Assembly: GCA_029747015.1 (NCBI GenBank)
Contig: JAKOGI010000110.1
Span: 527,233 to 591,232, forward strand
Length of the DNA stretch: 64,000 bases
Source: Carnegiea gigantea
Lineage: Eukaryota; Streptophyta; Magnoliopsida; Caryophyllales; Cactaceae
Reading direction: 5' to 3'
Made by a program: the position numbers and the translations under genes. This document shows positions 5,674 through 64,000 of this stretch, in pieces. The notes under the pieces are model-generated. The model did not search any database. It was not told the DNA's origin and saw only the letters and a list, made by a program, of their open reading frames with translations. The number at the start of each line of letters is the position of its first letter. Within the stretch, counting starts at the first letter, position 1.

Positions 5674-5782
5674 TCTGTGTTTTCTCTCTCTTTCTCAGTG
5701 TTTTCTCTCTCTACACCAGCCTTTTTTTCTCTCTCTTGATTTCCTGGGGTTGTTGCCTTGTGAAAATGATTAGCCCTATTTA

Positions 5783-7171: not shown

Positions 7172-7180
7172 ATTGCAGCT

Positions 7181-9125: not shown

Positions 9126-9208
<83 letters not shown>
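9126..9208. repeat. (TA)n microsatellite
   Basis: About 83 bp of nearly pure TA is followed by ATAG. The orthologous tract in segment B's other copy (46840-46869) is only about 30 bp. Tyr-Ile-rich ORFs over it are artefacts. Confidence 0.97.
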
Positions 9209-9211
<3 letters not shown>

Positions 9212-9340
9212 TGGACAAATAGATACATTACATCCATACTGACAAAACCCACAAATTACCTGCTAATATGCTATGATGGAAACCTCCCAGACATACCTGC
9301 CGAAAGGTGTTGAATTTCAGGCCTCAATCTGCCTTATGAA

Positions 9341-9811
9341 TTTTTTTGAGGTGGACAATGGGCATGAGCTGTCCCTATGAAAGTTTTTTCGTTTGAGGGA
9401 AAAAGGGGATTTTTTTTTCTAGGCTTTCACTACAACAATATGATATTGATTTATGAATAATAATGAATATTTGGGAATTTGGAAGACTCTACTTCATTGA
9501 AAATTTGAGATCACTAATATCTCTTAGTCATAATCTGTCGGCATGGGAATTGGAATAAGATCTTAGAGCATAATTCACTCAATTGACAAAACATTAGAAC
9601 TCCAGCAGCGAATCATGACGAAACCTAGTCATGTTTTTGCAAAATTATAAAACTATGAAACAAGGGCTAGGAAACCTCAAACGCACGACCTCTAGGACTC
9701 CAACACAAACAAGCGCGCCGTGCACTATTAAGCCATTCGCAAATTCAATTAAGGGTTAGCTTATTTAACATGTATATTGGCTTCTATTTTTTTTCATTTC
9801 TGCCATATATA
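9341..9811. repeat. Segment C, second copy (5'-shortened)
   Basis: It starts at TTTTTTTGAGGTGG and matches 4525-5000 and 48260-48731. The roughly 200 bp that precede this part in the other two copies are missing, because segment B is joined directly. There is no coding content. Confidence 0.9.
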
Positions 9812-9874
9812 ATTTTTTTTTTTTTTAGAGGGGTGTCGAGTGATACCATTGATACCATGCTGGTTTCGCCACTG
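9812..9874 (-). mobile_element. Single surviving end of a hAT element
   Basis: GAGGGGTGTCG through CGCCACTG is the inverted counterpart of the left end of the complete hAT-like element at 47643-47988. The similarity includes the T run that matches that element's A run. Only about 60 bp remain. The same remnant is at 48732-48790. Confidence 0.6.
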
Positions 9875-10393
9875 ATTTTGTGAACAATGGAATCAAAAAA
9901 GGTCATACAGCAGTAGCAGTGTTTACATAAAATGCTTCTATTTTGTGATTAATAGGTTTTTATTTTGTGAACAAGAGGTTATTGTTTACAAAAACAATAA
10001 GTTTTGGTTTTTGTGAACAATAAAATGACCTTTGCGAATTAGGTTAACGTTTTGGAAACAATAAACCCTTTTTCATTGATAATTCTGTTTAGCATATCTT
10101 TTAATGATTTTTAATTATTGGTATATGTGGCTTATATATATCTAATACCTTTTATTGACCAATTAGACATTTTTGGAGAACAATAGAAAATTAACCGTTA
10201 ATGAATAATAGTAATAATATGTACGTTAAACACTTTCATTAATGATTCCACCTAGTATTTTGATTTGATTTAATGAAGTTCCCTCACTTTATAACTCCAT
10301 AAAAATAAAAACAAAAACAAAAACAAAAACCTCCATTTCTATTCTCTAACTCGTGCAAGGGTTCTGTACTAATTCAGACTTATGGGACTTGCT
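9875..10393. other. Non-coding flank left of the copia element
   Basis: This is AT-rich sequence with repeated GTGAACAA words and an (AAAAAC)n tract at about 10303-10331, which is longer in the other copy (49217-49252). No gene is seen. It matches 48791-49315. Confidence 0.6.
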
Positions 10394-10398
10394 ATTTC

Positions 10399-10636
10399 TG
10401 TAAAATGTGAGATTATCAAAAATCGAAGCAAACACAGAGAAGAGAAGAACTGGGAGGTGAGCTTTTTAGCTCCATCCTCTATATGTTCATTATTTGAAAA
10501 GCGGTATTTTTACAGGAAAGGAATGTGAATCATTTATATACACGGACAACTAATTCCTGCTGATGTCTAACAAACTCTCAACTGATGATGCTGATGTGGC
10601 ATAGAGAGTTACAAACTTGTAACAGACTCCTCAACA
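10399..10636 (-). repeat. Copia 3' LTR
   Basis: It spans TGTAAAATGTGAG through CTCCTCAACA. It is bounded on the left by target duplication ATTTC and on the right by a C-rich stretch, TCCCCCCCTCAAGGCG, which on the element strand is the polypurine tract. Confidence 0.95.
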
Positions 10637-10652
10637 TCCCCCCCTCAAGGCG
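10637..10652 (-). other. Copia polypurine tract
   Basis: On the element strand this reads CGCCTTGAGGGGGGGA and abuts the 3' LTR. Such tracts prime plus-strand DNA synthesis during reverse transcription. Confidence 0.8.
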
Positions 10653-13600: not shown

Positions 13601-16600
13601 ATGTGAGAACTTCAGAGACATTGACTGCAGGAATAGGGATTTTGTCTTTGGAAGGAGATGTGAGAGTATAGAGCCCACCAGCCTTTTTGCCAACAGCCAT
13701 AATCAGCTTAGTTGAAAGGTCCTGAAAAATGCAATGAGTGGAGTAAAAGGTTGTGCGACACGGATTGTCAGACAAAAATTTTCCAACTGATAGAAGATTG
13801 TATTTAAAATCTAGCACATAAAGGACACCATGCAGTGTCAAGGAAGATGATATTGGGATAGTACCAATTATTGTGACAGGTTTTAAAGTGCCATCTAGCA
13901 GAGTGACAAACACAGGGTTATGTAAAGGGGTTGTATTGGAAAATAGGTCAAGGTTGAATGTCATGTGATCACTAGCACCTGTGTCAATAATCCAAGAACT
14001 CAAAGCACCTTTTAACACAGCACAGCTTATAGAAGATTGAGGGTCAGTTGAGACCATACCTGCAAAATGAGCATATGCATTGGAATCTGCATTTTGCATG
14101 TCCATCCCTTGCTTACCTTTGACAAGCTTCATCATTTCCTGAGCAAGTGCTTGTACAATATTAGTATCAACCTTGCCTAGAATAGAAGATGTAGTTGAAC
14201 CTGATGCACTGCTTCCAAAGGCATCATCAAGAGGATTGTCAGAGTTACTGTCAGCATAAGAGCTGACTATGTTCGCTGCAAATCTGGGGTTTCTTCTTGG
14301 TTTGATGTTCTCTTTAGGGCCTTGATACCATTCAGGATAGCCTATAATCTTGAAACATTGATCCGTGCTGTGACTAGACCTCTGGCAATGGTCACAAAAT
14401 CTATTGCCCTTGTTCTTCTTAAAATCCTTTCTGCCTTTAGCACCAGCATTCCCAGATTTAGTCACCATTGCAGTGATTGTACTATCTGAATCTCCAAAAG
14501 AATTAGTTTGTGTCCTCATAATATTTGCAGCTATTTCTCTATTAGCTGTTAAATTTCCAATAACATGCCTTTGAGTTTCTACTCTTCGTACCATAGAATA
14601 AGCCTTGTTAACACTTGGCAATGGATCAAGCAACAAAATCTGACCCCTTATGGCCTCATAATTCTCATTTAGGTGCATCAAGAAATGCATTAATTTTTGC
14701 CTTTCTGCAAGTTCCATGGTTTTTTTAACAGCTTTGCAATTAGGATCACAAATACAAGCAGATACTCCAGAAAGATCATCCAACTCATCTGTAACGCCCC
14801 AAATTAAACATGTTTCACTATTTATATCCTCCTTAATAAATCCCTTAATTATAATCTAGATAACCCAATGATAGGGGCATTACCGCCGTCCAAAAGGACA
14901 AGGCTTGAAACATGAGTGCTATAAAGAATATAACTAAGCGTAACCTCAAACATATACACTCACATCAAGTGTTAACCCATAAAGGGTTTATAAACCATAG
15001 TAAAATAAATCATTATATAGTCTACATTTTCATCCACAGAAGAATTTAATATACAGCTTTAAGGTATACATATACTGCATTACTTCTGATCCACCTGGAT
15101 CTCCTTGCTTCACTTATTCTCTTCAGCTGATTTGTTAGCATGAGGGCAATTCTCTGAGCATTTGCCTAAAACAAAACATGAAAATATTTCGAACTGTGAG
15201 CCGAAACTCAGTACATGCATTCCTGAATTGTTAAATGATCATTGAAACACTGGTTGGGTCTGCTTTGCAATTCATTTAAGCTCAAAACAGGGAATGAGAT
15301 GAATATAAAACTGCATTGTTGATTATTATCTGATAGTGAACCCCTTGATACTGTTACGATCTATGGATAGGTATACACCTGCCAAGCCGACCGGGGGACC
15401 TTGCCTGAAGCCGCGCGGGTAACTGAAGGGCAATGCCCTGCAACTGATAACTGACGGGATCACTAATTAACTGACAAATCACTGTGTAAACTGATTCATT
15501 GATGTACTTCAAAACATGATAACGTTGATAAATACACTCTGATTTCTAAAGATACAGGCAATGCACGTACCTGAAATCTTTAAAATGATATCTCACTTGA
15601 TAATATGTATGCACAATGAAAAATGATAGACTAGGCCCCATTTCTGTTTAAGAGGTATCATTATAAATAAATGTAGTTAGTAAACCATGTTCACTCACAT
15701 AATTTATAACTTTAGTGGAAATTGATTAATGAAAAAGACTTCTACAATCCCAATACTTCAATGTAAGGCAAGTTAAACCCAAATGATCTGAAAAATAAAT
15801 CAGTAAAGTTATTAAACTTGAAATGCAACAAACTGATACAAAATAGACCAATTGGAAAGATTGAGCTATTGAAATATGAGTTTCTGATATTTCTGAAATG
15901 AATAATGAAAAGTGTAATGCTTCTGAAATGGATAATAGAATGTGTAATGATTCTGAAATGGATAATAAAAGGTTTAATGCCATGAGAGGTTCATAGGGGC
16001 TCAAATGACCTCAGTTTGGTCCGTTAAGCACTAATTTCTTTCTTCACATAATACCGCTTAATAGTCTACTTTAGAAAATCCATATCTTTTACTCCCAAAC
16101 TCTAATTGAGATATAAAACCCCAATATGAAAAGATCATAATGTCCACTAAAACTTTCCTTCAGGACACAAAGTATGATTCACATAGTAAGGTCCCCAAAA
16201 TTTGGATAGAATACAAACATACACAATTTCAGTCCCATCTGCGCAGTTGTACAAAAACGACTATAACTTTTTCCACAGAACTCGGATTAAGGCGATTCAA
16301 AAGGAATTTGAAAGATAACTCATTGATCTATCCACACACGAAAAATCACAATTTTTGAGTTACCCAATCAATACCAATTTTTTTGTAAAGTTACTGTTCC
16401 AGTTCAGTTCCCAGTTTCAATGTATTCTGCACAGTCTTGAGTAAATTGGTCATAACTTTGTCCACACAACTCGAAATTGAGTAATTCCAAAGTCTATTGA
16501 AAGCTAACTCATCAAGATATCACTAGACCAAAAATCATGAATTTTGGATGTGCCAAACAGTACCAGTTTAATCCCGAAGTCACCCCTGTTTCAGGTCTGT

Positions 16601-39967: not shown

Positions 39968-40337
39968 AAGGGAGTGTTTAGTAATAATTTCAGACCAAAA
40001 TTATTACTTGGGAGAATTTTAGTTGTTTCAGCAAACTCAAACAGATAATTTGATAAATAGCTGTTTGTAACAGCTATTTACCTCAAAAAGACTCTTTTTA
40101 AAAAGTTATTTCCATTAACCTTTTGGGAAGACTTTTTTAATGAAATGATAGTACCGTATATTATTTAAAAGTAATTTATAGACAATAACATTAATAAAAT
40201 TTTACCAACACCTTATTTAAAAACAACTAGTTTTACCAACTATTTTTCTGAAAACAGTTAATTCAAAAAGCTAACGGCTAACAACTAGTATAAATAGTTA
40301 ACAGCTAATAAGTAACAACTGTTTGCCAAACAGGACC
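39968..40337. mobile_element. Small inverted-repeat element with TGTTTRG termini
   Basis: The left end GGGAGTGTTTAGTAATAA and inverted right end GGTCCTGTTTGGCAAACAG are similar. The interior matches the element at 18591-18955. It is probably a MITE of the same family. Confidence 0.55.
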
Positions 40338-40406
40338 AAACTTGAATAACCCCGAATCCCTATTAATGTGATTTAGTATTCCTTTTTTTTTTGTATAAAA
40401 AGATAC

Positions 40407-42827
<2,421 letters not shown>

Positions 42828-48074: not shown

Positions 48075-48731
48075 TCTCACATCTAAACATGCATTCCACG
48101 CAAAGCACAAATAGAAGAGAAGTTACCCATGCTTTTAAAAGAAATTACATATCAAAATATCACAGATATTCAAAGATGGAGCTACTGAAATCCAAATGAT
48201 GTCAATTGACATATCAAAAAATGATAGCTTACAGAATGCACCTTTTTTTTTTTTTCCTTTTTTTGAGGTGGACAATGGGCATGAGCTGTCCCTATGAAAA
48301 TTTTTTCGTTTGAGGGAAAAAGGGGATTTTTTTTTCTAGGCTTTCACTACAACAATATGATATTAATTTATGAATAATAATGAATATTTGGGAATTTGGA
48401 AGACTCTACTTCATTGAAAATTTGAGATCACTAATATCTCTTAGTCATAATCTGTCGGCATGGGAATTGGAATAAGATCTTAGAGCATAATTCAGTCAAT
48501 TGACAAAACATTGGAACTCAAGCAGCGAATCATGACGAAACCTAGTCATGTTTTTGCAAAATTATAAAACTATGAAACAAGGGCTAGGAAACCTCAAAAG
48601 CACGACCTCTAGGACTCCAACACAAACAAGCGCGCCGTGCACTATTAAGCCATTCGCAAATTCATGTTAAGGGTTAGCTTATTTAACATGTATATTGGCT
48701 TCTATTTTTTTTTCATTTTTGCCATATATAA
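48075..48731. repeat. Segment C, third copy
   Basis: It matches 4305-5000 (with a 35 bp difference near 48122) and, in its right part, 9341-9811. No genes are seen. Confidence 0.9.
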
Positions 48732-48790
48732 TTTTTTTTTTAAGAGGGGTGTCGGGAGATACCATTGATACCACGCTGGTTTCGCCACTG
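48732..48790 (-). mobile_element. Single surviving end of a hAT element, second copy
   Basis: Counterpart of 9812-9874, ending CGCCACTG. It is homologous to the left end of 47643-47988. Confidence 0.6.
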
Positions 48791-49320
48791 ATTTTGTGAA
48801 CAATAGAATCCAAAAAGGTTATACAACAGTAGCAGTGTTTACATAAAATGCTTCTACTTTGTGATTAATAGGTTTTTATTTTGTGAACAAGAGGTTATTG
48901 TTTACAAAAACAATAAGTTTTGGTTTTTGTGAACAATAAAATGACCTTTGCGAATTAGGTTAACGTTTTGGGAACAATAAACACTTTTTCATTGATAATT
49001 CTGTTTAGCATATCTTTTAATGATTTTTAATTATTGGTATCGGTGGCTTATATATATCTAATACCTTTTATTGACCAATTAGACATTTTTGGAGAACAAT
49101 AGAAAATTAACCGTTAATGAGTAATGGTAATAATATGTACATTAAACACTTTCATTAATGATTCCACCTAGTATTTTGATTTGATTTAATGAAGTTCCCT
49201 CACTTTATAACTCCATAAAAACAAAAACAAAAACAAAAACAAAAACAAAAACCTCCATTTCTATTCTCTAACTTGTGCAAGGGTTCTGTACTAATTCACA
49301 CTTATGGGACTTGCTATTTC

Positions 49321-49558
49321 TGTAAAATGTGAGATTATCAAAAATCAAAGCAAACACAGAGAAGAGAAGAACTGGGAGGTGAGCTTTTTAGCTCCATCCT
49401 CTATATGTTCATTATTTGAAAAGCGGTATTTTTACAGGAAAGGAATGTGAATCATTTATATACACGGACAACTAATTCCTGCTGATGTCTAACAAACTCT
49501 CAACTAATGATGCTGATGTGGCATAGGGAGTTACAAACTTGTAACAGACTCCTCAACA
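49321..49558 (-). repeat. Copia LTR, second copy
   Basis: 238 bp with the same flanking DNA and ATTTC (49316-49320) as at 10394-10636. It therefore arose by duplication of an already occupied site, not by a new insertion. Confidence 0.95.
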
Positions 49559-49566
49559 TCCCCCCC

Positions 49567-51080
49567 TCAAGGCGAAACTGGAGGAGAGTCCAGCAAACCA
49601 AGCCTTGAACAGAGATGATTATGTTGGTACTCACTCAAGGGTTTAGTCATAATGTCTGCCAGCTGATCTCTGGAGCTAACATGAGCTGTTTGCAAAAAAC
49701 CTTCAACAATCTTGTCTCGTGTGTAATGACAATCAATATTGAGGTGTTTGGTATGTTCATGAAAAACGGGGTTGGCTGCAATGTGTTGGGCAGGCCTGTT
49801 GTCACAGTATAGAACAATGGGCAGTGGAGGAGGAATGTAGAGGTCATGTAGAAGATGTGAGATCCATTCCAATTCAGAAACTGTGGTTCACATTGCCCTG
49901 TATTCAGCCTCAGCACTTGATTTTGCTAATGTTTTTTGTTTTTTTTGTTTTCCAGGAAACCAGAGAGCTGCCTAGGAACACACAATAGCCAGTGAGGGAT
50001 CTGGCACTGGGTTTGCAGTTTCCCCAATCTGCATCACTATAAACCGCTACTTGTAGGCTTTCATTTGCAGGATAATACAGTCCTTTGTTGGGGTTACCCT
50101 TCAAATACCTGAGCACATGCATGGCAGGCTGGAAATGACTGTCCCTGGGAGCTTGAATGAACTAACTGCGGTGATGTACAGCATAAGATATGTCAGGTCT
50201 AGTCAATGTCAAATAGAGTAGTCTACCAATGACTCTTCTATATTGCTCAGGATCAGGTAAGGGTTGTCCAGTATCCACAGATAACTTTAAGCCTTTTGGA
50301 AGAGGAAACTTGGCAGGTTTTGCACCTGTCAGGCCAGCATCCATCAGAATATCCAGAACATATTTTCTTTGGTTCAAGAAAGTCCCCTTGGAGGATCTGG
50401 AAATTTCAATCCCAAGAAAATATCTTGCAATGCCCAAGTCTTTAATGGTGAAGGCAGCATGCAAATCCCTTTTAATTTGAGCAATACTAGCAACATCATT
50501 CCCTGTAATCAGAAGATCAACCACATAAACAAGTACAAAGGTGATAAGCCCTTTCTGTAGCCTTGTGAATAGAGAGTAATCACTTTTGGACTGCTTGAAC
50601 CCTTTGGACTGTAAGAATTTTGTAAGCTCCAAATTCCATTGTCTGGGATGCTTGTTTAAGACCATCAAGTGACCTTTGAAGCTTACAAACTTGCCCAGGC
50701 TTTGCCTTTGTATATCCTTCAGGAGGAACCATGTATACTTCTTCATCAAGATAGCCATGCAAAAAAGCATTGTTGATATCAAGTTGATGCAAAGGCCAAC
50801 TCTTAGCAGTAGCAAGAGCTATAAAAATTCTAACTGTGATGAGTTTGGCCACAGGTGAAAAGGTATGTTTGTAGTCTTTGTCTTTCACCTGTTCAAACCC
50901 TCTAATTACTAATCTTGCCTTGTGTCTCTCTACAGAGCCATCTGCCTTGTATTTAGTCTTGTACACCCATTTTGATGTAAGAGCCTTTTTTCCTTGAGGG
51001 AGAGAAGTCAATATCCAAGTATGATTTTGTTCCAATGCTGTCAGTTCATGGTCCATTGCCTTCACCCAATCTGGATATAG
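49567..51080 (-). pseudogene. Copia pol C-terminal part, second copy, up to the Athila junction
   Basis: RNase H and reverse transcriptase of the copia copy. It shares both frameshifts and the YVVD change with 10645-11893. Additional changes are a TAG after HHRS (near 50162) and Asp in SLDGLKQ where the first copy has Tyr. It breaks off after TCTGGATATAG, where Athila-type sequence begins. Confidence 0.93.
50362..51080. repeat. 719 bp direct repeat flanking the Athila insertion, left unit
   Basis: ATTTTCTTTGG...CTGGATATAG of copia. The same 719 bp recur at 62373-63091 and I find no difference between them. The unit to the right continues into the rest of copia, while this one stops at the element. 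Confidence 0.93.
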
Positions 51081-51084
51081 TTTT

Positions 51085-51101
51085 TGGCGCCGTTGCCGGG
51101 G
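51085..51101 (+). other. Athila primer-binding site
   Basis: TGGCGCCGTTGCCGGGG, the primer site typical of Athila elements and complementary to an aspartate tRNA 3' end. Only TTTT separates it from copia sequence. Confidence 0.95.
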
Positions 51102-51171
51102 AGCTTGTTTGTTTTCAACATCGAAAGCGATTTTAAACGCTTGAGATTAGGCTTTTTCCTTTTTCTTTTTC

Positions 51172-54093
51172 TTGTCCCTTTCCCTTTCTTTGCTTCCTTG
51201 CTTGTTTTTATTCTTACTTGAACCTGCTTATGCTTGGTATAGTTTTTGGCTTTGTATGCACAGGCGCAGTCAGGGGAGTCACCATTTGCTTCCCCTGAAT
51301 CCTGAAATCGAAGCCACTGCTCGCAAGCAAAGCGGCGCTAGAAAGAAGAAACAAGCAAAATCTGCGATGGCGGCGCATGACAACCGGGTATTGAGAGACT
51401 ATGCTATGCCTCAATCGTCGGGTATCACCTCTTCTATAGTGAACCCTACGGTCGAGGTCAACAACTTCGAGTTGCGCCCGGCCCTTATCTCGCTGGTGGA
51501 GCGAGATCAATTTGGTGGACACCCTTCAGAAAACCCCAACATGCACCTTCGCAACTTCCTTGCGAAGTGTGATACAATCAAACTGAACGGGGTCTCCACC
51601 GATGCCATCAGACTGAGACTCTTCCCATTTTCTCTACGGGATAGAGCAAGAGATTGGCTCCAAAATGAGGAGCCGAACACCTTTGCCACTTGGGACGCCC
51701 TCTCCAAGGCTTTCCTGAGTAAATACTTCCCCCCTGGGAAGACGGCCAAGCTGAGGGCTGATATCACTTCCTTCGCCCAGATGCACAGTGAATCCTTATA
51801 TGAGGCGTGGGAAAGGTTTAAGAATTTGCAGCGCCAGTGCCCCCATCATGGAGTCCCTGATTGGCTCCTCATCCAGACCTTCTACAACGGTCTGGACCAA
51901 TCCCTCAAAATGTCAATTGATGCTGCTGCTGGGGGTGCACTGATGGGGAAGTCTATCGAGGTGGCCAAGACCCTACTGGAAGACATGGCCGCTAATAACT
52001 ACCACTGGTCCAATGAGAGGGCAGCTCCGAAAAAGGCAAGCGGGGTTTATGGAGTCGACGCTGTGGACTTGCTAGCTAGCAAGGTTGATGCCTTGGCGCA
52101 GCGATTCGACAGGCTTGGTGCTCCTTCAGGGAGTTCAATGGGAAGTCCATCGGGTGCAATGTTTGAGGTCGGGGCATTTTGCGAGGTATGTGGCGTTCAA
52201 GGCCACATTTCTGCTGACTGCCAAACCGCTTTCCCAGGCGCTGAGCAGGCCAATGCAATGCAAACATATGGCCAGCGCCCACAAAACAACCCCTACTCGA
52301 ACACATACAACCCCGGTTGGAGAAATCATCCTAATTTCTCCTACCGCAACAACAACCCCATGTCTCCAAACCCTTCTCAATCTCAACCTCAGCCTCCTGG
52401 TTTCCAATACAGGGCCCCTTATACCCAAGCCCCTCAACAAACACCCCAACAACCTCCCCAACAACAATCCAAGTCCAATCTAGAAAGCCTCATGGAGCGA
52501 TTTATAGCTACCCAAACGAAGACCAATGAGGTACTCAGCGAGTCGGTCAACCAGTTGAACTCAAAGTTTGACTCGATGGCCACTCACCAAAAGATGATGG
52601 ACAACCAGATCGCTCAAATTGCGCAGCAAGTGAACCATTTGTCCAGACCCCAAGGCCACTTACCAGGTCAATCTGAGACCAACCCCAAGGGTCAGATGAA
52701 TGCAATCACATTGCGAAGCGGGAGTGTGTTGGAAGGTCCCCCAATGCCCATGCGGGCAGAACAACATGAGGTTAAAGATGGGGATGAGGTCATCAAGGTA
52801 ACCCCTAGTGATGCTGTGAGTGAGGAGGTTCCGAATGAGAAACCTAAGGAGGTCGCAACAGAAGGTATTACCCCCCAGGCGAAGCCTTACAAACCACCAG
52901 TCCCATATCCCCAGAGGCTAATAAACGCTAGGGAGGAACACAAGTACGGCAAGTTCCTCGAGATGCTTAAAAAGTTCCATATCAACATCCCTTTTCTGGA
53001 GGCCATTACCGACATGCCCTCCTATGCCAAATTCCTGAAAGATTTGCTCTCTAATAAGGGAAAGTTACTCGAAAACGCCATTGTGTCTCTGACTGAAGAG
53101 TGTAGTGCAATTATTCAGAACAAGCTCCCCCCTAAGCTATCAGATCCAGGGAGTTTCTCCATCCCCTGTTCTGTTGGGGGCATAACTATCAGCAGGGCAT
53201 TATGTGACCTTGGGGCCAGTGTGAGCCTCATGCCATTTTCTATTTGTGAGAAGCTGCAAGTGGGTGAGCTAAAACCCACCACTATTTCTTTGCAACTGGC
53301 TGATCGTTCAGTGAAGTATCCCCTTGGCGTCCTTGAGGATGTCCCATTGCAAGTGGGGAAGTTTTTCATCCCATGCGATTTCGTAGTTATGGAGATGGAG
53401 GAAGACTCCCGCATCCCTATCATTCTGGGAAGGCCCTTTTTAGCGACTGCGGGGGCTATGATAGATGTGAAGAACGGCAAGTTAACCCTTCAAGTGGGTG
53501 ATGAGAAGGTAGAATTCAGCTTGCCACAAGCCATGATCTCCCCCATTTCAGGTGACTCTTGCTGCAGAGTCGATGTCTTTGAGCAGGCCCTTAATGAGGA
53601 GGGCAAGATTGGTTCTTTTGCGGAAGACCCCTTAGAGGCTGCTCTACTCGACTGTCATGCCAGTGCCCCGAGCTCGGACGAGAAGGAGGAGTATGCCCAA
53701 CTCCTTGACACATCTACCACCTATTTGCCTAGACGGTCCCATAGAGAGCTCCTCAGTCTAGCAGAGCCAGTCTTCAGGGAGCAAGAGGGGGGCCCCACGA
53801 AGGTCGAATTAAAACCTCTACCTTCCCATCTCAGGTACGCTTTTCTGGACCCTTCCCATCGATGTCCCGTTATTGTCAATGCTAACCTAGATGGTCCCCA
53901 GTTGGAACAACTGTTGGATGTGCTTCGTAAGCATAGGGGTGCCATCGGGTATAGTATTGATGATATTCGAGGACTTAGTCCTACGTTTTGCATGCACCGC
54001 ATCTTTCTCAATGACGGTCACCGCCCCTCTCGACAACCTCAACGTCGATTAAATCCAAACATGCAAGAGGTTGTCAAAAAAGGAAATCCTTAA
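51172..54093 (+). CDS. Athila gag-protease and start of reverse transcriptase
   Basis: The 973-codon frame opens at 51172, but the conserved gag begins near residues 40-66 (PLNPEIEATARK; MAAHDNRVLRD at 51367). The capsid-like region has HLRNFLAKCDTIKLNGV, ARDWLQNEEPNTFATWDAL and RFKNLQRQCPHHGVPDWLL. A CCHC knuckle CEVCGVQGHISADC is near 52186-52230. A Gln/Pro-rich linker follows, then an aspartic protease with ALCDLGASVSLMPF (about residue 677) and IILGRPFLATAGAMIDV. The frame ends at 54093 shortly after entering the polymerase (PNMQEVVKK), because a run of six A has one base too many. Gag packages RNA and the protease matures the polyprotein. Confidence 0.92.
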   Translation: MSLSLSLLPCLFLFLLEPAYAWYSFWLCMHRRSQGSHHLLPLNPEIEATARKQSGARKKKQAKSAMAAHDNRVLRDYAMPQSSGITSSIVNPTVEVNNFELRPALISLVERDQFGGHPSENPNMHLRNFLAKCDTIKLNGVSTDAIRLRLFPFSLRDRARDWLQNEEPNTFATWDALSKAFLSKYFPPGKTAKLRADITSFAQMHSESLYEAWERFKNLQRQCPHHGVPDWLLIQTFYNGLDQSLKMSIDAAAGGALMGKSIEVAKTLLEDMAANNYHWSNERAAPKKASGVYGVDAVDLLASKVDALAQRFDRLGAPSGSSMGSPSGAMFEVGAFCEVCGVQGHISADCQTAFPGAEQANAMQTYGQRPQNNPYSNTYNPGWRNHPNFSYRNNNPMSPNPSQSQPQPPGFQYRAPYTQAPQQTPQQPPQQQSKSNLESLMERFIATQTKTNEVLSESVNQLNSKFDSMATHQKMMDNQIAQIAQQVNHLSRPQGHLPGQSETNPKGQMNAITLRSGSVLEGPPMPMRAEQHEVKDGDEVIKVTPSDAVSEEVPNEKPKEVATEGITPQAKPYKPPVPYPQRLINAREEHKYGKFLEMLKKFHINIPFLEAITDMPSYAKFLKDLLSNKGKLLENAIVSLTEECSAIIQNKLPPKLSDPGSFSIPCSVGGITISRALCDLGASVSLMPFSICEKLQVGELKPTTISLQLADRSVKYPLGVLEDVPLQVGKFFIPCDFVVMEMEEDSRIPIILGRPFLATAGAMIDVKNGKLTLQVGDEKVEFSLPQAMISPISGDSCCRVDVFEQALNEEGKIGSFAEDPLEAALLDCHASAPSSDEKEEYAQLLDTSTTYLPRRSHRELLSLAEPVFREQEGGPTKVELKPLPSHLRYAFLDPSHRCPVIVNANLDGPQLEQLLDVLRKHRGAIGYSIDDIRGLSPTFCMHRIFLNDGHRPSRQPQRRLNPNMQEVVKKGNP

Positions 54094-56702
54094 ACTACTT
54101 GACGCTGGGATTATCTACCCTATCTCTGATAGTGAGTGGGTGAGCCCAGTCCAGGTAGTTCCTAAAAAGGGAGGCATGACTGTTATAAAGAATGAGCGCG
54201 ACGAACTCATTTCTACTAGGACAGTTACCGGGTGGCGAATGTGCATTGATTATCGTCGATTAAATCAAGCCACCCGGAAAGATCATTTCCCTCTTCCCTT
54301 CATTGACCAGATGTTGGAAAGGTTGGCAAGGCACTCTTTTTTCTGTTATCTGGATGGCTATTCGGGGTTCTTTCAAATCCCTATCCATCCTGATGACCAA
54401 GAAAAAAACAACCTTCACGTGCCCGTATGGTACCTTCGCATATCGAAGGATGCCATTCGGTTTATGTAATGCCCCCGCCACCTTTCAACGCTGCATGACT
54501 GCTATATTCTCTGATCTAATAGAGAACATTATGGAGGTGTTTATGGATGACTTCTCCGTCTATGGAGGTACCTATGCCCTTTGTTTGGAAAATTTAACCC
54601 GGGTACTCCATCGATGTGAGGAAGTCAATCTAGTATTGAATTGGGAGAAATGTCACTTTATGGTGCAGGAGGGAGTAGTGTTGGGCCATGTTATATCTGC
54701 CAGGGGCATTGAGGTGGACAGAGCTAAAGTTGAGGTTATCGAGCGATTGCCCCATCCTACTTCGGTAAAGGGAGTGCGGAGTTTCCTTGGTCATGCGGGG
54801 TTTTACCGCCGCTTTATCAAGGATTTCTCCAAGATCGCCAAACCTCTTACTCAGCTGCTCACCAAAGATGCCCCGTTTGTCTTTACTGATGAGTGTCTTG
54901 AGTCTTTTTGCAGGATCAAGCAGGCACTGATTTCCGCCCCTATCATACAACCGCCAGACTGGGACCTCCCATTTGAGGTCATGTGTGACGCCAGCGACCA
55001 TGCGGTAGGGGCCGTTTTGGGGCAAAGGAAGGACAAGAAGCCCGTAGTGATCTACTACGCTAGCAGAACCCTGGACGAGGCCCAACAGCATTATACCACA
55101 ACTGAGAAGGAGTTGCTTGCGGTCGTGTATGCGATCGAGAAGTTCCGCCCCTACCTCCTATGCTCCAAGGTCGTTGTGTACACTGACCACTCTGCACTCA
55201 AGTACCTCCTTCAGAAGAAAGATGCCAAACCCCGTCTTATACGATGGATTCTGCTGCTCCAGGAGTTTGACCTGGAAATTAGGGATAAGGCAGGGGCCGA
55301 AAATGTGGTAGCTGATCATCTCTCCAGGCTCATTGTCGAGAGCCAATGTGCCCCCATTGATGATGCTTTCCCTGACGAGCATCTTTTGGCCCTCTCATCG
55401 ATTGCATCCCCTTGGTTCGCTGATATCGCCAATTACCTGGCCTCGGGAATCGTACCATATGACTTGTCACCTCATCAGAAGAAGAAATTCTTTCATGACA
55501 TCAAGTCCTACTTCTGGGAGGAACCCTTCTTGTATAAGCTATGTAAAGATGGGATTTATAGGCGTTGCCTCCCTGAGGAAGAGGTTCAGAGTGTGATTTC
55601 TCATTGTCACGACTCGCCAAGTGGAGGGCACGCCAGTGCCTCCAAAACTGCAGCCCGAATACTCCAAGCTGGTTTCTTCTGGCCCTCCCTTTTCAAGGCT
55701 GTGTCCACATATGTTCGGTCCTGTGACCGCTGTCAGCGAACCGGGAACCTATCCAGGAAGAATGAAATGCCTCTCAACTTCATTCTGGAAGTGGAGATTT
55801 TTGATGTGTGGGGGATCGACTTCATGGGTCCTTTCCCGTCTTCAAGAGGTAACAAATACATCCTAGTTGCAGTAGACTACGTCTCCAAGTGGGTGGAGGC
55901 GGTGGCTAGCCCCACTAATGACTCCAGGGTCGTGGCGAAACTTTTCAAGAAGATTATATTCCCACGTTTTGGAGTCCCGAGGGTCGTAATTAGTGACAAT
56001 GGCCCTCACTTTGTAGAGAAGAGATTGGAAGCTTTATTGAAGAAATATGGGGTGCATCATAAATTTGGGCTTAGCTATCATCCCCAGACTAGTGGCCAAG
56101 TGGAGATCTCCAATCGTGAAATCAAGGTTATTTTGGAGAAAACAGTCGCACGGTCGCGAAAGGATTGGGTGGATAGGTTAGATGACGCCCTTTGGGCTTA
56201 CCGCACGGCTTTCAAGACTCCAATAGGTACCACCCCCTTTCGCCTTATCTATGGCAAGCCTTGCCACCTCCCTGTGGAATTGGAACATAAGGCTTATTGG
56301 GCCATTAAGTACTTCAATTTTGACTTGAAGTCTGCGGGGGAAAAGCGGCTGTTACAACTGAATGAGCTGGAGGAAATTCGGCTTGATGCCTATGAGAATT
56401 CAAGGCTCTATAAGGAGCGAGTCAAGAGGTGGCATGATCGGTTCATAAACCGGCGAGAGTTTCGGGAAGGCGATTTGGTTCTCTTGTTCAACTCCAGATT
56501 GAAGCTTTTTCCTGGGAAGCTCCGCTCTCGTTGGTCGGGTCCTTTTACCGTGCTCAAAGTCTATCCTTATGGCGCTATTGAGATTGGCACGGAGGCCACG
56601 GGGTCATTCAAGGTAAACGGTTCCCGGCTTAAGCACTACATTGCTGGGGAGCGAATCGAGGGCAAGGTTTCATATGGCTTGCCTACTGCGACAGCTACCT
56701 AG
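54071..56702 (+). pseudogene. Athila pol: reverse transcriptase, RNase H, integrase (two frameshifts)
   Basis: It continues gag-protease after the shift at about 54080. Reverse transcriptase: [25 protein letters not shown] and the catalytic FMDDFSVYG near 54541. A second single-A insertion near 54410 changes frame before [18 protein letters not shown]. RNase [39 protein letters not shown]. Integrase: HHCC zinc finger ([12 protein letters not shown]...CDRCQ), catalytic [18 protein letters not shown] and [12 protein letters not shown], and a C-terminal GPF module ([14 protein letters not shown]). All catalytic residues are present. Only the two homopolymer shifts break the polyprotein, and these could be sequencing errors. 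Confidence 0.92.
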
Positions 56703-56899
56703 GTATCATGCACGGTCAAGCTCGGTGCTCAAAGTCTATCCTTATGGCGCTATTGAGATTGGCACGGAGGCCACGGGGTCATTCAAGGTAAACGGTTCCC
56801 GGCTTAAGCACTACATTGCTGGGGAGCGAATCGAGGGCAAGGTTTCATATGGCTTGCCTACTGCGACAGCTACCTAGGTATCATGCACGGTCAAGCTCG
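56550..56899. repeat. Exact 175 bp tandem duplication at the end of pol
   Basis: 56550-56724 and 56725-56899 are the same sequence, covering the end of integrase ([13 protein letters not shown] to TATAT and the stop) and the bases after it. The second unit repeats the C-terminal 51 codons out of context, downstream of the true stop. Confidence 0.97.
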
Positions 56900-57009
56900 G
56901 GACCTAAAACAAGCGCTTCTTGGGAGGCAACCCAAGTTTTATCGCCTTTCACCAAAAAAAAAAGGTGTAAATTGGAATTTTTGGGAGGTGTGTCAACACT
57001 CTGCATACA

Positions 57010-57154
57010 CACGGCCGTGCAACAGTGACACACGGCCGTGTATCCAGGCCAGTAAGCCCGCACGACCAGACGCACAAACGTGCGTCTCAGCCGTGCGCGA
57101 CAAAGAGGAAAACAAAACACGCACGGTTAACCGTGCGTTGACGCACGACCGTGC
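57010..57154. repeat. Palindrome cluster between Athila pol and ORF3
   Basis: CACGGCCGTG occurs twice (57010-57019 and 57031-57040). Then come ACGCACAAACGTGCGT (57070-57085), the perfect 16 bp palindrome GCACGGTTAACCGTGC (57121-57136) and GCACGACCGTGC (57143-57154). It lies in untranslated sequence. Confidence 0.93.
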
Positions 57155-57950
57155 GCCCCAGTTTTATACCAGCTTCTCTCTCCTCCTCGGCCAGTTTCCC
57201 CTTGCGTTTCTCTCTCCTCCCTCTCGACTCTCCCTCTCCCTTCGGTAATCTCCCTCTGCTCTCTCTCTTTATCCTTCGCCGGCGGCCACTCTCCGACGAC
57301 CGCCGTCGACTCCTGACAACCACCGCCGGCGTCCACAGCCCCGTTGCCTCCAATCTCTCCCACTCTCTTGGCCGTCGCCTCACCACTGTCGGCCGTTCCC
57401 GGTGGCGCCTCGCCGGTCGTCGTCCACCGGCGTTACCACCGGACACCACTCCCTCTCTCTCTTGCGCAGGTACGCATCCCCCTCCCCCCCGCTCTCCCTC
57501 ACTGCCACCCTCCGGCGCACACACCCACGGCCGGCGCCCCCAATTCCGCCGTCCGGCGTCTCTCTTACACAGCCGGGCCCACCTTGGTTTGCACCTAGGG
57601 TTTGCATTTGGGGCTTGTCCTTGCTCGATTTAGTTGTGATTTAGTTGATTCGGGTGGTTGTTTTGGGTAATTTGGGTGATTTGGGTCAATTTCCTTGGTT
57701 GTGTTTTGCCTAATTTGGTCACGCTCATGGTTATTTGGGTTAGTTCAATTTGGTTACCCGTTGGCATTTTTGCGGTTTGTATTTCCGTTTGCGGTTAGTT
57801 CAATTTCCTTGGTTGTGCCTGGGATTTGCTTCGGGTTCTTTGGTTGTCTTGCTTGAATACTTGATTGCATTGGTTTGGTTGATTGGATTGGGCCGCCTTG
57901 CATTGATTTAGTTAGTTGCACTCACTGTCTGCTTGACCCAGAACCTTACC
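57155..57950. other. Athila spacer before ORF3
   Basis: GC- and CT-rich, with CCGCCGGCG words to about 57600, then T/G-rich. No conserved protein. ORFs on both strands reflect composition. It may hold the leader of a spliced or internally initiated ORF3 message (inference). Confidence 0.5.
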
Positions 57951-59267
57951 ATGGCTCCAAAGAAGCGCTTGAAAACCACCGCAGCTTCCACTAGCCGGGC
58001 CTCCACGGCCCGAGGTAACCCCACTCTCCCTCGTAGCCAAAACCCGCATAACATTGTGTTTATGGATGCTGCCCATGCTAGTCGTTATGCTGCGATAGTT
58101 AGCCGTAAGATTTGTGCCCCCAGTTACATTGATATCGACATGTTGCGCACCTTGCAACTTTATGATGACGTGGTGCTTCTCTTGCGTAATTTGGGGTGGG
58201 TTGACTTTATTGCTTTACAAGAACCTGTCTATGAGCGCCTCGTTTGGGAGTTCATGAGTTCTTATGTCGTCGACTTCAAACGTAAGTTTGACGAAGTTCG
58301 GGGATACATTCGCTTCCGCTTGTTTAACCATACGCATGAAATGCATCTTGTACGGTTTAATGAGCTACTGCGCCTGCCTGTTGGGGGTGCCACCTGCCAC
58401 ACCCACCCCGACTACCAGCCCAAACAGTTTTGGACCACCCTCACCTGCTCGGGGCGTCCCTACGAGGCTCGGTCTACCAAGGCCACATGGATTTGTAATC
58501 CAGTAATCCGATATTTTCACCGCCTCCTCGCCAACCATGTCTTCCCCCGCGCCGATAGCCAAAATGGGGTTAGGGCGAGTGAACTTTTCATGATTTGGGC
58601 GGCCTTGCATCGCCGGGCCGTCAATACTGGCGCCTTTATTGCCGACCACCTGCACGAACATGCTAAATCCTCTAAGGTGGTCCTTAGTGACGGCGGTATC
58701 ATCACCGCCTTAGCCACCGCCTTGGGCTATGGCGCCCAGATCGCCTCCTTGCCCATTCTCCATCAGCCCGGCCGTCTTGACTTAGCCACATGCCTTAACA
58801 TGAAACTCTTCACCACTCATGGTGGAGGTGCGTTGTGGCTCAACCACCACGGCCGGGCACTATTTCCCTTCCCCAACCAGCCCAGGACCACTGTTACCAA
58901 CCATGAGAACCTCATCTATGACGATGAGGCGGCCGGTGAGGCTGGGGCCCATTCTGATGACGGCAGCGACCATGGGTCCACTGACGAGGCCGAGGCTCTC
59001 CCTCGGGCTCGCAGTGGTTCGCGGCGTGCCCCTAGCCCTCCTGCCGCAGGCCCCTCTCATCCATCACACCCTTCACCTGCCGGCGCTATGCGTCCTTCGG
59101 TTCTTCAGACGGTTTTAGACCGTCTCGACCAGTTACATGTCCAGAACCAGGAAATCCTTCGCAACCAGCACCACATGGCCCACCTGGTTCAATATGCTTA
59201 TGAGACCCATAACTGGCCCTATCCGCCCCCTGCCTGGCGGCCGCGAGGACCCCCCGGGCCTTCTTGA
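57951..59267 (+). CDS. Athila third ORF (ATHILA ORF-1 family, function unknown)
   Basis: 438 residues from MAPKKRLKTT, chosen over an upstream Met (57933) because ACCATGG is the better start context. A basic N-terminus is followed by a conserved globular part (FMDAAHASRYAAIVSRKI, FMSSYVVDFKRKF, FRLFNHTHEMHLVRFNELL, SELFMIWAALHRR). Then come an acidic stretch (YDDEAAGEAGAHSDDGSD), a Pro/Ser/Arg-rich linker and a coiled segment near the end (VLDRLDQLHVQNQEILRNQ). Athila elements carry such an ORF in the position of an envelope gene. I see no signal peptide or transmembrane helix here, so an envelope role is not supported. The frame is intact. Confidence 0.8.
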   Translation: MAPKKRLKTTAASTSRASTARGNPTLPRSQNPHNIVFMDAAHASRYAAIVSRKICAPSYIDIDMLRTLQLYDDVVLLLRNLGWVDFIALQEPVYERLVWEFMSSYVVDFKRKFDEVRGYIRFRLFNHTHEMHLVRFNELLRLPVGGATCHTHPDYQPKQFWTTLTCSGRPYEARSTKATWICNPVIRYFHRLLANHVFPRADSQNGVRASELFMIWAALHRRAVNTGAFIADHLHEHAKSSKVVLSDGGIITALATALGYGAQIASLPILHQPGRLDLATCLNMKLFTTHGGGALWLNHHGRALFPFPNQPRTTVTNHENLIYDDEAAGEAGAHSDDGSDHGSTDEAEALPRARSGSRRAPSPPAAGPSHPSHPSPAGAMRPSVLQTVLDRLDQLHVQNQEILRNQHHMAHLVQYAYETHNWPYPPPAWRPRGPPGPS

Positions 59268-60283
59268 CTGTCCTTTCCCTCCTCTCTCCCTTCCTTTTCT
59301 TTCATTGCGGACAATGACCGGCTCTAGTAGGGGGGGAGCGCGAGTCCGTTGCTTGTATATAGGTAGTTGCATTTTCTTTTTATTTTCCTTTCACATGCCT
59401 ATAGCATAGTGCATTTAGCATAGGTATTTGCATCGCAAGGATGACTTGGAGAGTTGGATGCGCGCAAACCTACGAGGTAATCTCTAACCCTTCCTCTCTT
59501 CCTTTTCCCTTGTATTTTTATTGCTTTCGTAGCTAGTTTTACGCTTCCTTTACCCCCCCCCAAAAAAAAAAAAAACCCTTTGAAAACCCCCTCTTATGAT
59601 GATAATCAAGGCGATAAGGATCAGTTGGATGATATGGTTGTGCATACTTGTGGATTCTTTTGCGGTAAAATGCTTTCGACTGATGATTTGAGAAATGTTT
59701 TGACCTCGTTGCTTGATTCGCATCCCTAATTGCCTTTGAAACCCCCTCACCATGATTGACTATTCTATTTAAGTAGGATATCCTTGGGGTCGATTGTGTT
59801 GTTTGGTAGTATAAACCGTGAGACTTTGAGCTTATAGACTAATCTATCATTTTAGTCTCATTTTCCTTTCATGTGTGTCTCTTCTACGATTACATCTCTA
59901 GAACTTGTTGGAATTCTCTTTGAAATCGCATCTAGCATGTGTATAACGACTGAATGATAGAGGCATTCATTTCTTTTTGAACTACATAGCCAAACTGCCA
60001 CCTGTGCTGGTATGTTTACCCTTTGCTTGCCCTTTCGAGCCTTACCCGTTTTTGTTGAGAACCTTTTATTGCTAGCCTTTGGCCCAAACATATCTCCTAC
60101 CTTCAAGCCAAGGCCAGTAGAGCAACACGTCACTGTTTTGTGGGTACTTTTTGGGATATTGTTGTGGCTCCTGTGGCGTGTAATGGGGATGTATCATGGT
60201 TATCATTCGCGAAGCGTGCCTATTTTGTTGTTGTGCGTCCCTTTCAAAAAAAAAAAAAAAAAAGGGGACAGAAAATTTTTTTC

Positions 60284-60333
<50 letters not shown>

Positions 60334-60983
60334 TGATGAACAAGAGTGTTTGGCATGTTAGCATAGTGTATTCCCGGCAACCCCTTTGGTTTAGAGAGTG
60401 CTCATAATTACATTGAGAGTGTGATATCACTTATTTCAGTGTTGGTTGCTCACTAGCTAAGGCTTTCAGCTTCACACTTCCCAAACTGTTTGTCCCTCTC
60501 TTACCTGTACCCTTAGCCCCGTCTCAACCTTGCAAAGTCCTCTTGATTGTGGTTGTGCATTTTGCATTTTAGCGGTGGAGAATTGAGAATCCTACCAAGC
60601 CTATGGTAGATTGTTGTAGTGGAAGAGGGTTGAGTGAACCACTTTACATCCAAACACATGCGAGGGAGTGCACATACTTATCCCTTCTATGAGAGTCACT
60701 ACCACGCCTTCCGACCCACTGCTTATTTGAATGCGTTTTGATTTGGGGAGGGGGGCGATATGGTTTGATGAGATGTTGATTTGGGCACGTGGTCCTCCTA
60801 ACGATTTGAAAAGATTTTGAAAACTGTGTTTATGCCTCAAACTAGCCCACCAGCTGTGCGCATCGCTGTTCGATCTGACTGATCCACTATTTGCCTTGCC
60901 TGAGGAGGCGGATAGTTGCAGGTTTTCGACTCCCTATCGCTCTATTCATGTTTCAGTCTTGCTTGGGGCCAAGCAAGCGCTAA
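59268..60983. other. Athila 3' non-coding region
   Basis: 1.7 kb without recognisable coding sequence between ORF3 and the polypurine tract. It includes C/A tracts at 59552-59576 and long A runs at 60246-60331. Long non-coding 3' regions are usual in this lineage. Confidence 0.7.
60246..60331. repeat. Poly(A) tracts
   Basis: Runs of about 18 and about 46 A are separated by GGGGACAGAAAATTTTTTTCGC. Poly-Lys and poly-Phe ORFs over them are artefacts. The true lengths are uncertain. Confidence 0.95.
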
Positions 60984-60995
60984 GTAGGGGGGAGT
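60984..60995 (+). other. Athila polypurine tract
   Basis: GTAGGGGGGAGT directly precedes the 3' LTR start TGATAAACC. This is the usual priming site for plus-strand synthesis. Confidence 0.88.
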
Positions 60996-62372
60996 TGATA
61001 AACCTCAAATTTGACCCATTTTCAACTCTAATTCTTCCCCTTTTCTCCTATAATCTTTCGACTAATCTTAGCAAAAAGGGGGGTTGAATACACTTTCTTG
61101 ACCTATTATGCGCTAAGTTGTCCTAATTCTTGATCTGCAGGTCTAAGGTTTAAAAAGTGGGAGTTTCCTGCTGGTTGTGCCAAAAATGACGCTCTGGGGT
61201 CAATTTCTGGCGTGAATGAAGCGTCGGCGAAGCCCGGGAGAACCATCTGGAGGCGCACGGCTGATTGCAGGGAGCGCACGGTCAGTTGCAGGACACGCAC
61301 GGCCGTGCCTCGTAGCCAGAAGGTGCGCACGGTTTGGCGCACGACCGTGTGCCTAAACCATGCCTACCCCCGGCACGCACGTTCCCCCGTGCGTGGGACG
61401 CACGACCGTGCGTCATTAGTTTTTGCGCGATTTAATTACTTCGCGAGGCAGTTACCTGGGGGTATTCTTTTTGGTTTTCTTTTCTCCTGCTTTTCTTTTT
61501 TTTCCCTCAAAAAGGGGGCGACTCTAGGGTTAGTTTGGATTTCAATTGGTTGTTCAGTTCAACACTTTGGTTTGGATTTAATTATTGCTTTCGGTAGATT
61601 GTTGCTACAGATTGGTACACTCTTGAACCCTTCTTTTATTCGTTGTAATTCAAGTTTCTTATTTCTTCGCATGCTATCATTATTGATTGAAGTTGAGATT
61701 AGAATTATGTTTAGCGGCTAAGTTCCTAAATCTTGGATTGGGTGTAGCCCCTATAATGTGAATTGGATATCGATTCTAGGTTTTTGTGAATTCTGCCTAA
61801 AGTATTATTGAATTCTCACTTAGCACGCCAGGTGTTCGATGAATTGCCTGAGAAGGCTTATTCATGTTCTTAAAGAGGGTTTAGGAGACTAATGAGAGTT
61901 GGGTCCTTCACCTAGAGCGGCTTTGCGAGCGATTGTAAATCTTAACATGAGAATAGTTAGGATTTCAATTGGGAATTGAGATTACTTGATCTTGTGGTTT
62001 TGTTATTCTAGTTTCATGAGAATAGATAATTAGGATAATTCAACCAGTCTGATGATCTTCGAGAGAAGGCGCAGATGCTCTTAATTGGTAATTATTCCAT
62101 TTCGATTGTTCCGCAGGCAGATTCGCATTACCTAAGTCTTCTTCCCAATGAACGTTATAGTGTGGTGAACTCCAATCCAGGACTCCTCTCATTATTTGAT
62201 ATAAACCTAATAGAATTAGAATCAGTTTACCCAAATTCACCAGACCTAGCTTAGATTAAGTGTCACAGATTGCCTCGGTGATTGAAACCAAGTTCCCTGC
62301 GGATACGACCCGTACTTGCCTCTGCTGGCTACAACCGGCACCGTGCACTTGCGGTATATTTTTAACTCAACA
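60996..62372 (+). repeat. Athila 3' LTR
   Basis: 1,377 bp from TGATAAACCTCAAATTTG to ACTCAACA. The end contains GCGGATACGACCCGTACTTG and CCGTGCACTTGCGGTATA, sequence typical of the 3' end of Athila/Tat LTRs directly before the primer site. A palindrome cluster lies within it. Confidence 0.9.
61297..61414. repeat. Palindrome cluster in the Athila LTR
   Basis: GCACGGCCGTGC (61297-61308), CACGGT...ACCGTG-type arms around 61329-61351, an 8 bp stem CACGCACG / CGTGCGTG with loop TTCCCC (61374-61395), and GACGCACGACCGTGCGTC (61397-61414, 8 bp arms around AC). They use the same GCACGG/CCGTGC vocabulary as 57010-57154 and 30589-30767. Confidence 0.93.
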
Positions 62373-63091
62373 ATTTTCTTTGGTTCAAGAAAGTCCCCTT
62401 GGAGGATCTGGAAATTTCAATCCCAAGAAAATATCTTGCAATGCCCAAGTCTTTAATGGTGAAGGCAGCATGCAAATCCCTTTTAATTTGAGCAATACTA
62501 GCAACATCATTCCCTGTAATCAGAAGATCAACCACATAAACAAGTACAAAGGTGATAAGCCCTTTCTGTAGCCTTGTGAATAGAGAGTAATCACTTTTGG
62601 ACTGCTTGAACCCTTTGGACTGTAAGAATTTTGTAAGCTCCAAATTCCATTGTCTGGGATGCTTGTTTAAGACCATCAAGTGACCTTTGAAGCTTACAAA
62701 CTTGCCCAGGCTTTGCCTTTGTATATCCTTCAGGAGGAACCATGTATACTTCTTCATCAAGATAGCCATGCAAAAAAGCATTGTTGATATCAAGTTGATG
62801 CAAAGGCCAACTCTTAGCAGTAGCAAGAGCTATAAAAATTCTAACTGTGATGAGTTTGGCCACAGGTGAAAAGGTATGTTTGTAGTCTTTGTCTTTCACC
62901 TGTTCAAACCCTCTAATTACTAATCTTGCCTTGTGTCTCTCTACAGAGCCATCTGCCTTGTATTTAGTCTTGTACACCCATTTTGATGTAAGAGCCTTTT
63001 TTCCTTGAGGGAGAGAAGTCAATATCCAAGTATGATTTTGTTCCAATGCTGTCAGTTCATGGTCCATTGCCTTCACCCAATCTGGATATAG
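62373..63091. repeat. 719 bp direct repeat flanking the Athila insertion, right unit
   Basis: Same sequence as 50362-51080, including the Asp variant SLDGLKQ, so both units come from the same copia copy and the duplication is recent. Confidence 0.93.
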
Positions 63092-64000
63092 CTTTGCTTG
63101 TGCATAGTACTTAGGTTCTGGTTGTTGTAACACATTTACTAGTGAGGACATGTAAGAGGCTGAAAGGTGTGCCAAATTTGAAAAAGTGAACAAAGGATAA
63201 GGTGTGGATGTAGAGTGAAAGCTTTGTGATTGAGAGGAAGAACTTAAGGGTAAAGAGACGGCTGGGTATTATTTATAGCATTGGTTTTGATGGCTGATTC
63301 TGGAGCTGTAATAAATGATTTAGGACACACATAGTCCTTAAGCCAGGTTGGTGGTGCTCTAACTCTAGAGGATTTTCTAGGAGGTGTCTCTACAACAAGT
63401 ACCTGCTCAGGGAGTTGTGAATCATAATAGGAAGGAGAAGAAGTATTATAGACTGAGTTAGAAGGGTCAAGATGAAGAGGAACATTATGAGTCTTTGAAG
63501 GGGAAGGTCTGGACTGAGTTTTTGGGGAGTCTGATATGAAATGAGGGGCCAAATGGGGCACAATGGAACCATTTGGGGCCTCCATACAGGGAACACTCGT
63601 ATTGCTTGAATCTTCTTTGAAGGGAAAAACGTTCGCTTTAAACCAGACATCTCTGCTGTGAAAAAATTTCTTTATTTGCAAATCATAAAGTTTATAACCT
63701 TTAAAACCAAAGGTATATCCAAGAAAAATACATTTATGTGCCATGGCCTCAAATTTGTCCATCTCCCCCACATTTGCAGCAAAACAGAGGCAGCCTGTGG
63801 TCCTCAGTATAGTGTAATCTGGTGGTTTACCATAAAGCCTCTCAAATAGGCTTTTCCAAGATAAGTTGGACATAGGCAACATGTTAATGATGTGTGTTGC
63901 AGAAAGTATACACTCACTCCAGAATGATTTGGGCAGTCCTGCATGAAACCTTATGGCTCTTACAGTGTCAAGCAAATGTCTATGCTTTCTTCTACAACTC
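62373..64000 (-). pseudogene. Copia pol, second copy, continuation to the window edge
   Basis: Minus strand: reverse transcriptase ([31 protein letters not shown]) through the linker to integrase (HIINMLPMSNLSWKS). It matches 11445-13068 of the first copy. The single-base deletion near 63260 (GAGACGG versus GAGACCGG) adds a further frame break between integrase and polymerase. It is cut by the window end. Confidence 0.92.

Follow-up and report, generated by a model that had tools for sequence, protein, structure and literature searches.

We describe here an incomplete retrotransposon of the cactus Carnegiea gigantea and the long duplication of its target that flanks it. The element, of the Athila type within the Ty3 group, lies in a stretch of 64,000 nucleotides without any N (C110:527233-591232, hereafter the window) and sits within a copia element coded on the minus strand. 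It ends in a complete 3' long terminal repeat (LTR), has no 5' LTR, and separates two direct copies of 719 bp of copia sequence. Counted from the AG of its spacer, it is 11,294 bp long. The locus contains the following features:

48258-50361, minus strand: copia target, left part as compared (48258-51084 against 9341-12162, 97.9%), with an RVT_2 domain in 50162-50815
50362-51080, no strand assigned: left copy of the 719-bp copia target
51079-51084, plus strand: AGTTTT, the spacer between LTR and primer site, taken as the start of the element; its AG is common to the target
51085-51102, plus strand: primer-binding site TGGCGCCGTTGCCGGGGA; the same site follows the LTR in relatives
51172-54093, plus strand: gag-protease open frame, 973 aa (Retrotrans_gag, E 3.3e-23; Asp_protease_2, 8.7e-06)
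54303-56702, plus strand: reverse transcriptase, RNase H and integrase open frame, 799 aa (RVT_1, 7.3e-18; RT_RNaseH, 4.5e-37; rve, 9.4e-18; Integrase_H2C2, 5.8e-15), ending within a 175-bp tandem duplication
56550-56899, plus strand: this exact 175-bp tandem duplication; C860 and C2137, the two other copies compared, have the 175 bp once
57933-59267, plus strand: ATHILA open frame, 444 aa (PF03078 ATHILA, E 1.9e-18)
60986-60994, plus strand: polypurine tract AGGGGGGAG, followed by T and then the LTR, the same context as at the 3' LTRs of close relatives
60996-62372, plus strand: complete 3' LTR, TG...CA, 1377 bp, with 99% identical full-length matches elsewhere
62373-63091, no strand assigned: right copy of the 719-bp target, directly abutting the CA of the 3' LTR
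63092-64000, minus strand: copia target, right part, running past the edge of the window, with an SH3_retrovirus domain in 63244-63975
11440-12158, minus strand: empty-site paralogue, with the 719 bp in single copy and no Athila

Gag, reverse transcriptase, RNase H and integrase domains are all present, in an order and of a type that are Ty3-like, and the ATHILA frame lies downstream of pol. The primer site is presumably of the tRNA-Asp type. Over the first 400 internal bases the element is identical at 399 to C860, the closest two-LTR copy found, from which it differs at 8-9 positions over the LTR and whose own LTRs differ at 1 position in 1377. Judged by its sequence, the window copy is a member of the Athila family by descent. 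Yet the 5' LTR found in its relatives is absent here. As the initial annotation had claimed, the sequence ahead of the primer site is copia and not LTR, and the 3' LTR (TGATAAACC...CTCAACA) is complete.

The claim of a 719-bp direct duplication of the copia target was borne out by alignment: both copies are 719 bp long and show 0 differences. The bases preceding the two copies are unlike (T and A), as are those following them (T and C), and 719 bp is therefore the full length of the repeat. A chance origin of such an identical repeat is ruled out. We searched the 1.13-Gb genome with the 719 bp and scored the best 40 of 569 candidates. Among these, three places lie on the contig of the window, namely the two copies and the paralogue, and the next copies differ from the repeats by about 3%. 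No other contig showed two copies some 12 kb apart; C463 carries a pair at a distance of about 5 kb, with 74% identity.

The paralogue offers a view of the site without the insertion. Parts of 1-13069 align to parts of 26498-64000 with about 94-99% identity, their order and spacing rearranged, which points to a regional duplication; 40394-40724 and 9042-9238, which lie in or near AT-rich stretches (40001-42000 and 8001-10000), also have short, diverged repeats in common, in both orientations. In the paralogous copia (9341-16500 compared) the target is uninterrupted and the 719 bp occur once, so the duplication is the derived state. The copia match extends to the equivalent of window position 67413, the edge of the comparison, and the two copia elements differ at 134 of 7127 aligned sites (1.88%). 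Were the two repeats as diverged as the rest of this pair, the chance of finding 0 differences between them would be about 4e-7, and their divergence is at most 0.42% (95% upper bound). As the repeats show 0 differences against 1.88% for the copia pair, the 719-bp duplication is later and recent, and the order read from these sequences puts the copia insertion and the regional duplication before it. Within the 719 bp the window differs from the paralogue at 5 of 719 positions. This stretch is nearer to the paralogue (0.7%) than the remaining copia is (Fisher p 0.009), a post-hoc comparison for which we offer no explanation.

This history disposes of one candidate origin. Had the Athila been part of the copia cDNA, through a template switch at the birth of copia, the paralogous copia should carry it; that copia has no Athila and is 1.88% different, so copia is older than the Athila insertion, and we rejected the idea. 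Two further candidates were also discarded. Insertion into a pre-existing tandem repeat would have left the 5' LTR in place. The same is true of recombination between two insertions, which would explain the long duplication.

We compared the spacer with that of 27 of the 29 other loci, the remaining 2 having escaped the pattern used. In all 27 an LTR end stands ahead of the primer site, with a spacer between them that reads AGTTTT in all but one locus, where it is AATTTT. The two bases ahead of TTTT in the window are AG (51079-51080), which are also the last two of the left 719-bp copy. Since relatives have AGTTTT and the target supplies AG, the left junction is the joint between LTR and spacer, with an overlap of 2 bp. 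The initial annotation had the element begin with TTTT and the primer site; it was right about the absence of the LTR, and the start has to be moved to the joint, with a 2-bp ambiguity. At the right junction the LTR reads ...CTCAACA and the next base is target, so that at most one A could be leftover spacer. In three copies with ordinary 5-bp target-site duplications (TSD), C2137 (TGGTG), C1521 (AGTTG) and C1498 (CTTCA), the 3' LTR likewise ends in CA directly on the target. Because it is trimmed to CA as in these copies, the right end looks like an integrase-type end as far as its bases tell. An unprocessed U5 end would be expected as CA-AGTTTTTG, and the 3' LTR of the window does not have this form. 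Although this LTR is trimmed to CA and stands on target, no 5-bp TSD is visible at the element.

Taken as one event, these observations are best explained by one-ended integration of an Athila cDNA with a single LTR, the host having made the 719-bp duplication; we consider this origin somewhat probable. The substrate would most simply be a one-LTR circle or a circular intermediate of reverse transcription. Cutting after the terminal CA of the LTR, integrase would produce a CA-OH at the U5 end and leave AGTTTT and the primer site at the opposite end. We infer that integrase performed the first joining, of the U5 end to copia at 62372|62373. The opposite end would offer no LTR terminus for integrase to use. 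Its 3' end, ...AAAACT, could pair by CT with an AG in the target 719 bp away and be extended by a host polymerase; the new strand would traverse the 719 bp, pass the insertion point and recombine with the left flank, which would close the gap. The stretch so copied would be the duplication. The order of these host steps may have been different, but the mechanism does yield the observed arrangement, and its sole further assumption is the one-LTR substrate. The combination of a trimmed right end and a long duplication makes a reading by one event preferable.

The initial annotation had proposed two substrates, and they do not fare alike. The element was said to have the extent of the minus-strand transcript before the second strand transfer. 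In the standard scheme of reverse transcription the minus strand starts beside the primer site; the spacer then follows the 3' LTR, and before the second transfer the other end is the primer site. As the window shows the reverse, with the spacer on the 5' side and the 3' LTR trimmed to CA, the cDNA reading finds no support. The second suggestion, a one-LTR circle opened at the joint between LTR and primer site, fits better and is upheld as a possible substrate: such a circle, or a circular intermediate with a minus-strand nick close to the primer site, gives spacer, primer-binding site, internal region and LTR ending in CA when it is cut after CA on the plus strand, which matches the element. 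A more specific version would have a plant Ty3 integrase use such a circular intermediate, trimming and inserting only its U5 end and leaving host end-joining to place the other; we regard this as possible and rather doubtful.

The statement that integrase does not produce such a structure was too strong. In HIV-1 and ASLV, integrase can join one end and leave the other to the host (PMC5041404). As described there, synthesis starts from the unjoined viral 3' end on host DNA close by, where the two share a short homology; depending on the side, the recombination that follows leaves a deletion or a duplication, which often measures hundreds to thousands of bp. The aberrant proviruses described have one normal end and another that is often truncated, usually with short homology there. 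The element resembles them in having one end that looks integrase-type, another end short of the terminal sequence, a duplication of hundreds of bp and a short overlap: the aberrant end is accompanied by the 719-bp duplication and a 2-bp AG homology. It differs from these cases in being a natural plant Ty3 element, with no drug or mutant involved, and in that its left end lies at the joint between LTR and spacer, the entire LTR being absent.

Several points weigh against one-ended integration. It rests on a single clear case, whose structure is that of the assembled sequence, and the circular substrate is our inference. About 16% of junctions should show a 2-bp overlap by chance, and the right junction alone is also the mark of an ordinary insertion. 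A uniformly placed 5' break would meet the joint with a probability of about 2e-4 over the element or 2e-3 over the LTR; given many broken copies per genome, the position of the left end could be a coincidence. Two other copies, C2359 and C267, represented by a 3' LTR alone among the 40 matches scored, have no second copy of their flank on their own contig among the 40 best matches. Finally, no second clear copy starting at the joint appeared among 1407 primer-site cores, most of them screened by pattern alone.

That survey, which the initial annotation had called for, took every exact 22-bp primer-site core in the genome. In 1263 cores the spacer is preceded by CA and these were taken as LTR ends by pattern; a copy without LTR would show CA by chance about 1 time in 16. 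Another 126 have A preceded by a base other than C. Eye inspection covered 20 of these, fetched from 100 listed, and all resemble LTR ends. In 18 cores the base ahead of the spacer is not A, and among these the window is the only clear copy without LTR. The 17 others were fetched, and 15 resemble LTR ends by eye. One of the two exceptions (L073) is not LTR-like by eye and yet is repeated, recurring on its contig at a distance of 10.8 kb in the manner of an LTR pair. The other (L078, on C3062) has upstream sequence that is not LTR, of which the last 121 bp match only themselves; it sits in a rearranged repeat array and is not a clear case.

Among the alternatives, the one that survives best, though we think it unlikely, is an artefact of assembly, in which an empty haplotype (through 51080) was joined to a filled one (from the spacer on). 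Near-identical Athila copies assemble poorly, the swapped target duplications of two other copies (C3118 and C3944) are possibly due to misassembly, and the two 719-bp repeats are identical. Some contigs also have sizes in round multiples of 2500, which might reflect automatic splitting. Yet the join is non-homologous (2 bp), whereas misassembly driven by repeats should join homologous sequence, as the C3118/C3944 swap would. The lack of N in the window and the unbroken copia of the paralogue also argue against an artefact.

One might also suppose an ordinary two-LTR insertion at 50361/50362, with ATTTT as TSD, that later lost its 5' LTR by a break. Synthesis would have started from the ATTTT of the left end, paired with the same five bases in the right TSD, and added 714 bp of the right flank before this end was joined to the spacer at AG. 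The 5-bp homology of the TSD would account for the left start of the copy and AG for its other end, and tandem duplications made by break repair are reported as the commonest insertions in a comparison of rice genomes, some above 1 kb (PMC7971508). But the removal of the LTR must then be exact at both ends, and the right break must fall by chance on the joint between LTR and spacer, about 3 of 1377 positions. We judge this route improbable.

A low probability also attaches to a route independent of integrase, essentially what the initial annotation had in mind: a double-strand break, staggered or resected, would have captured a one-LTR molecule, and the long overhangs of the break would have been filled in. 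Breaks in mouse zygotes are reported to capture retrotransposon sequences, often at a short overlap (PMC4516963), and breaks in yeast to capture Ty1 cDNA (PMC10802722, a preprint). The mouse captures shown are, however, truncated at both 5' and 3' ends (PMC4516963), and 40 of 56 captures of the 3' LTR in wild-type yeast are reported with nucleotides found only in cDNA (PMC10802722), whereas the U5 end of the window is trimmed to CA. An integrase-independent route of Tf1 in fission yeast is described as using homology to the element (PMC12786077), and copia offers none beyond AG. The element resembles break captures in being an incomplete chromosomal element with a short overlap, and differs from those described (PMC10802722, PMC4516963) by its exact LTR terminus at one end and its 719-bp duplication.

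Replacement of the 5' LTR by unequal recombination with another copia copy, also considered by the initial annotation, or with the empty homologue, is very unlikely: copia copies do exist elsewhere, one of them 39 kb away in the window, but the joint has no homology beyond AG, and the repeats match each other at 719/719 against 714/719 for the nearest other copy (and about 3% difference for the next), so that only an empty homologue or sister would fit.

The relatives of the element show unusual joints of their own. C860 has no TSD of its own, and no long direct duplication was found within about 6 kb of it. In C860:281590-299950 (L002, L003, L099, L100, L109) the Athila is joined to a second element with the same primer site, in the order 3' LTR, AGTTTTTG, AA, TATT and then the LTR of the second element. 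The two elements together stand between the copies of a 5-bp duplication, AATGG, and two paralogous hosts carry AATGGCGG once. One reading of the joint is that it consists of an unprocessed U5 end (spacer and first two bases of the primer site), AA, and the four bases between polypurine tract and LTR of the second element; the LTRs of that second element are only 94.4% identical, which counts against an origin of the pair in a single event.

An Athila-like LTR end and spacer without the usual primer-site bases occurs at 44 places. At least 11 of the 44 keep a primer site in modified form (8 lack one T; the others are L121, L125 and L126), and 7 of the 20 fetched (L112, L115, L119, L123, L127, L128, L129) lead through AGTTTTTGCAAAAACT to the end of an inverted LTR, which matches the LTR end of the second family. 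These seven joints (C47, C81, C188, C583, C1422, C1444, C2875) have the form LTR ...AACA-AGTTTTTG-CAAAAACT-TGTT..., in which each arm consists of the spacer and TG, as a U5 cDNA end would if left unprocessed. Four were checked for the kind of LTR that precedes the joint (C1422, C583, C81 and C188), and in the first three it is a 3' LTR with its polypurine tract. From their sequence we read them as probable tail-to-tail unions of unprocessed ends of different LTR-retrotransposon families, and the three types of LTR end on one side of the joints point to several events. The joints could alternatively stem from deletion between inverted primer sites, since L118, L116 and L120 show inverted elements that are separated by remnants of the primer site or by other bases. 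Two Athila copies, C3118:17552-29886 and C3944:22410-34759 (L009, L014, L012, L013), have swapped target duplications: ACTTC stands to the left of one copy and to the right of the other, and so does ATTTT. Either misassembly or a reciprocal ectopic exchange would account for this.

In flies, one-LTR circles are reported to be a major product (PMC12132167, a preprint), and a review describes a circular intermediate formed by alternative end-joining (PMC12786077). The window insert, with its spacer, primer-binding site, internal region and LTR, is like such a circle opened at the joint, but it is chromosomal whereas those molecules are described as extrachromosomal. Plant tandem arrays of LTR retrotransposons (PMC11899658) also have a non-standard number of LTRs, with circles as a possible source; as described, their units share LTRs and are flanked by TSDs, whereas the element described here lacks one LTR and has a 719-bp target duplication. 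The tandem duplications of rice (PMC7971508) are perfect, long and ascribed to repair, like that of the window, but a retrotransposon separates the copies here and none takes part in the mechanism described there.

One-ended integrations are known so far from drug-treated or mutant retroviruses, and we met no such plant case among the titles and abstract beginnings listed in searches of the open-licence literature. If one-ended integration is the right explanation, the window would hold a natural and heritable footprint of it, with the empty-site paralogue beside it, and plant LTR retrotransposons would also insert by one end. Such insertions would then make target duplications of hundreds of bases. 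On the more specific and more doubtful version, in which integrase takes the circular intermediate itself as substrate, one-LTR circles, regarded as dead ends, would provide an alternative route into the chromosome at the cost of an LTR. Copies without LTR that begin at the spacer between long identical flanks are a signature that can be searched for, and might tell whether one-LTR intermediates reach the chromosome.

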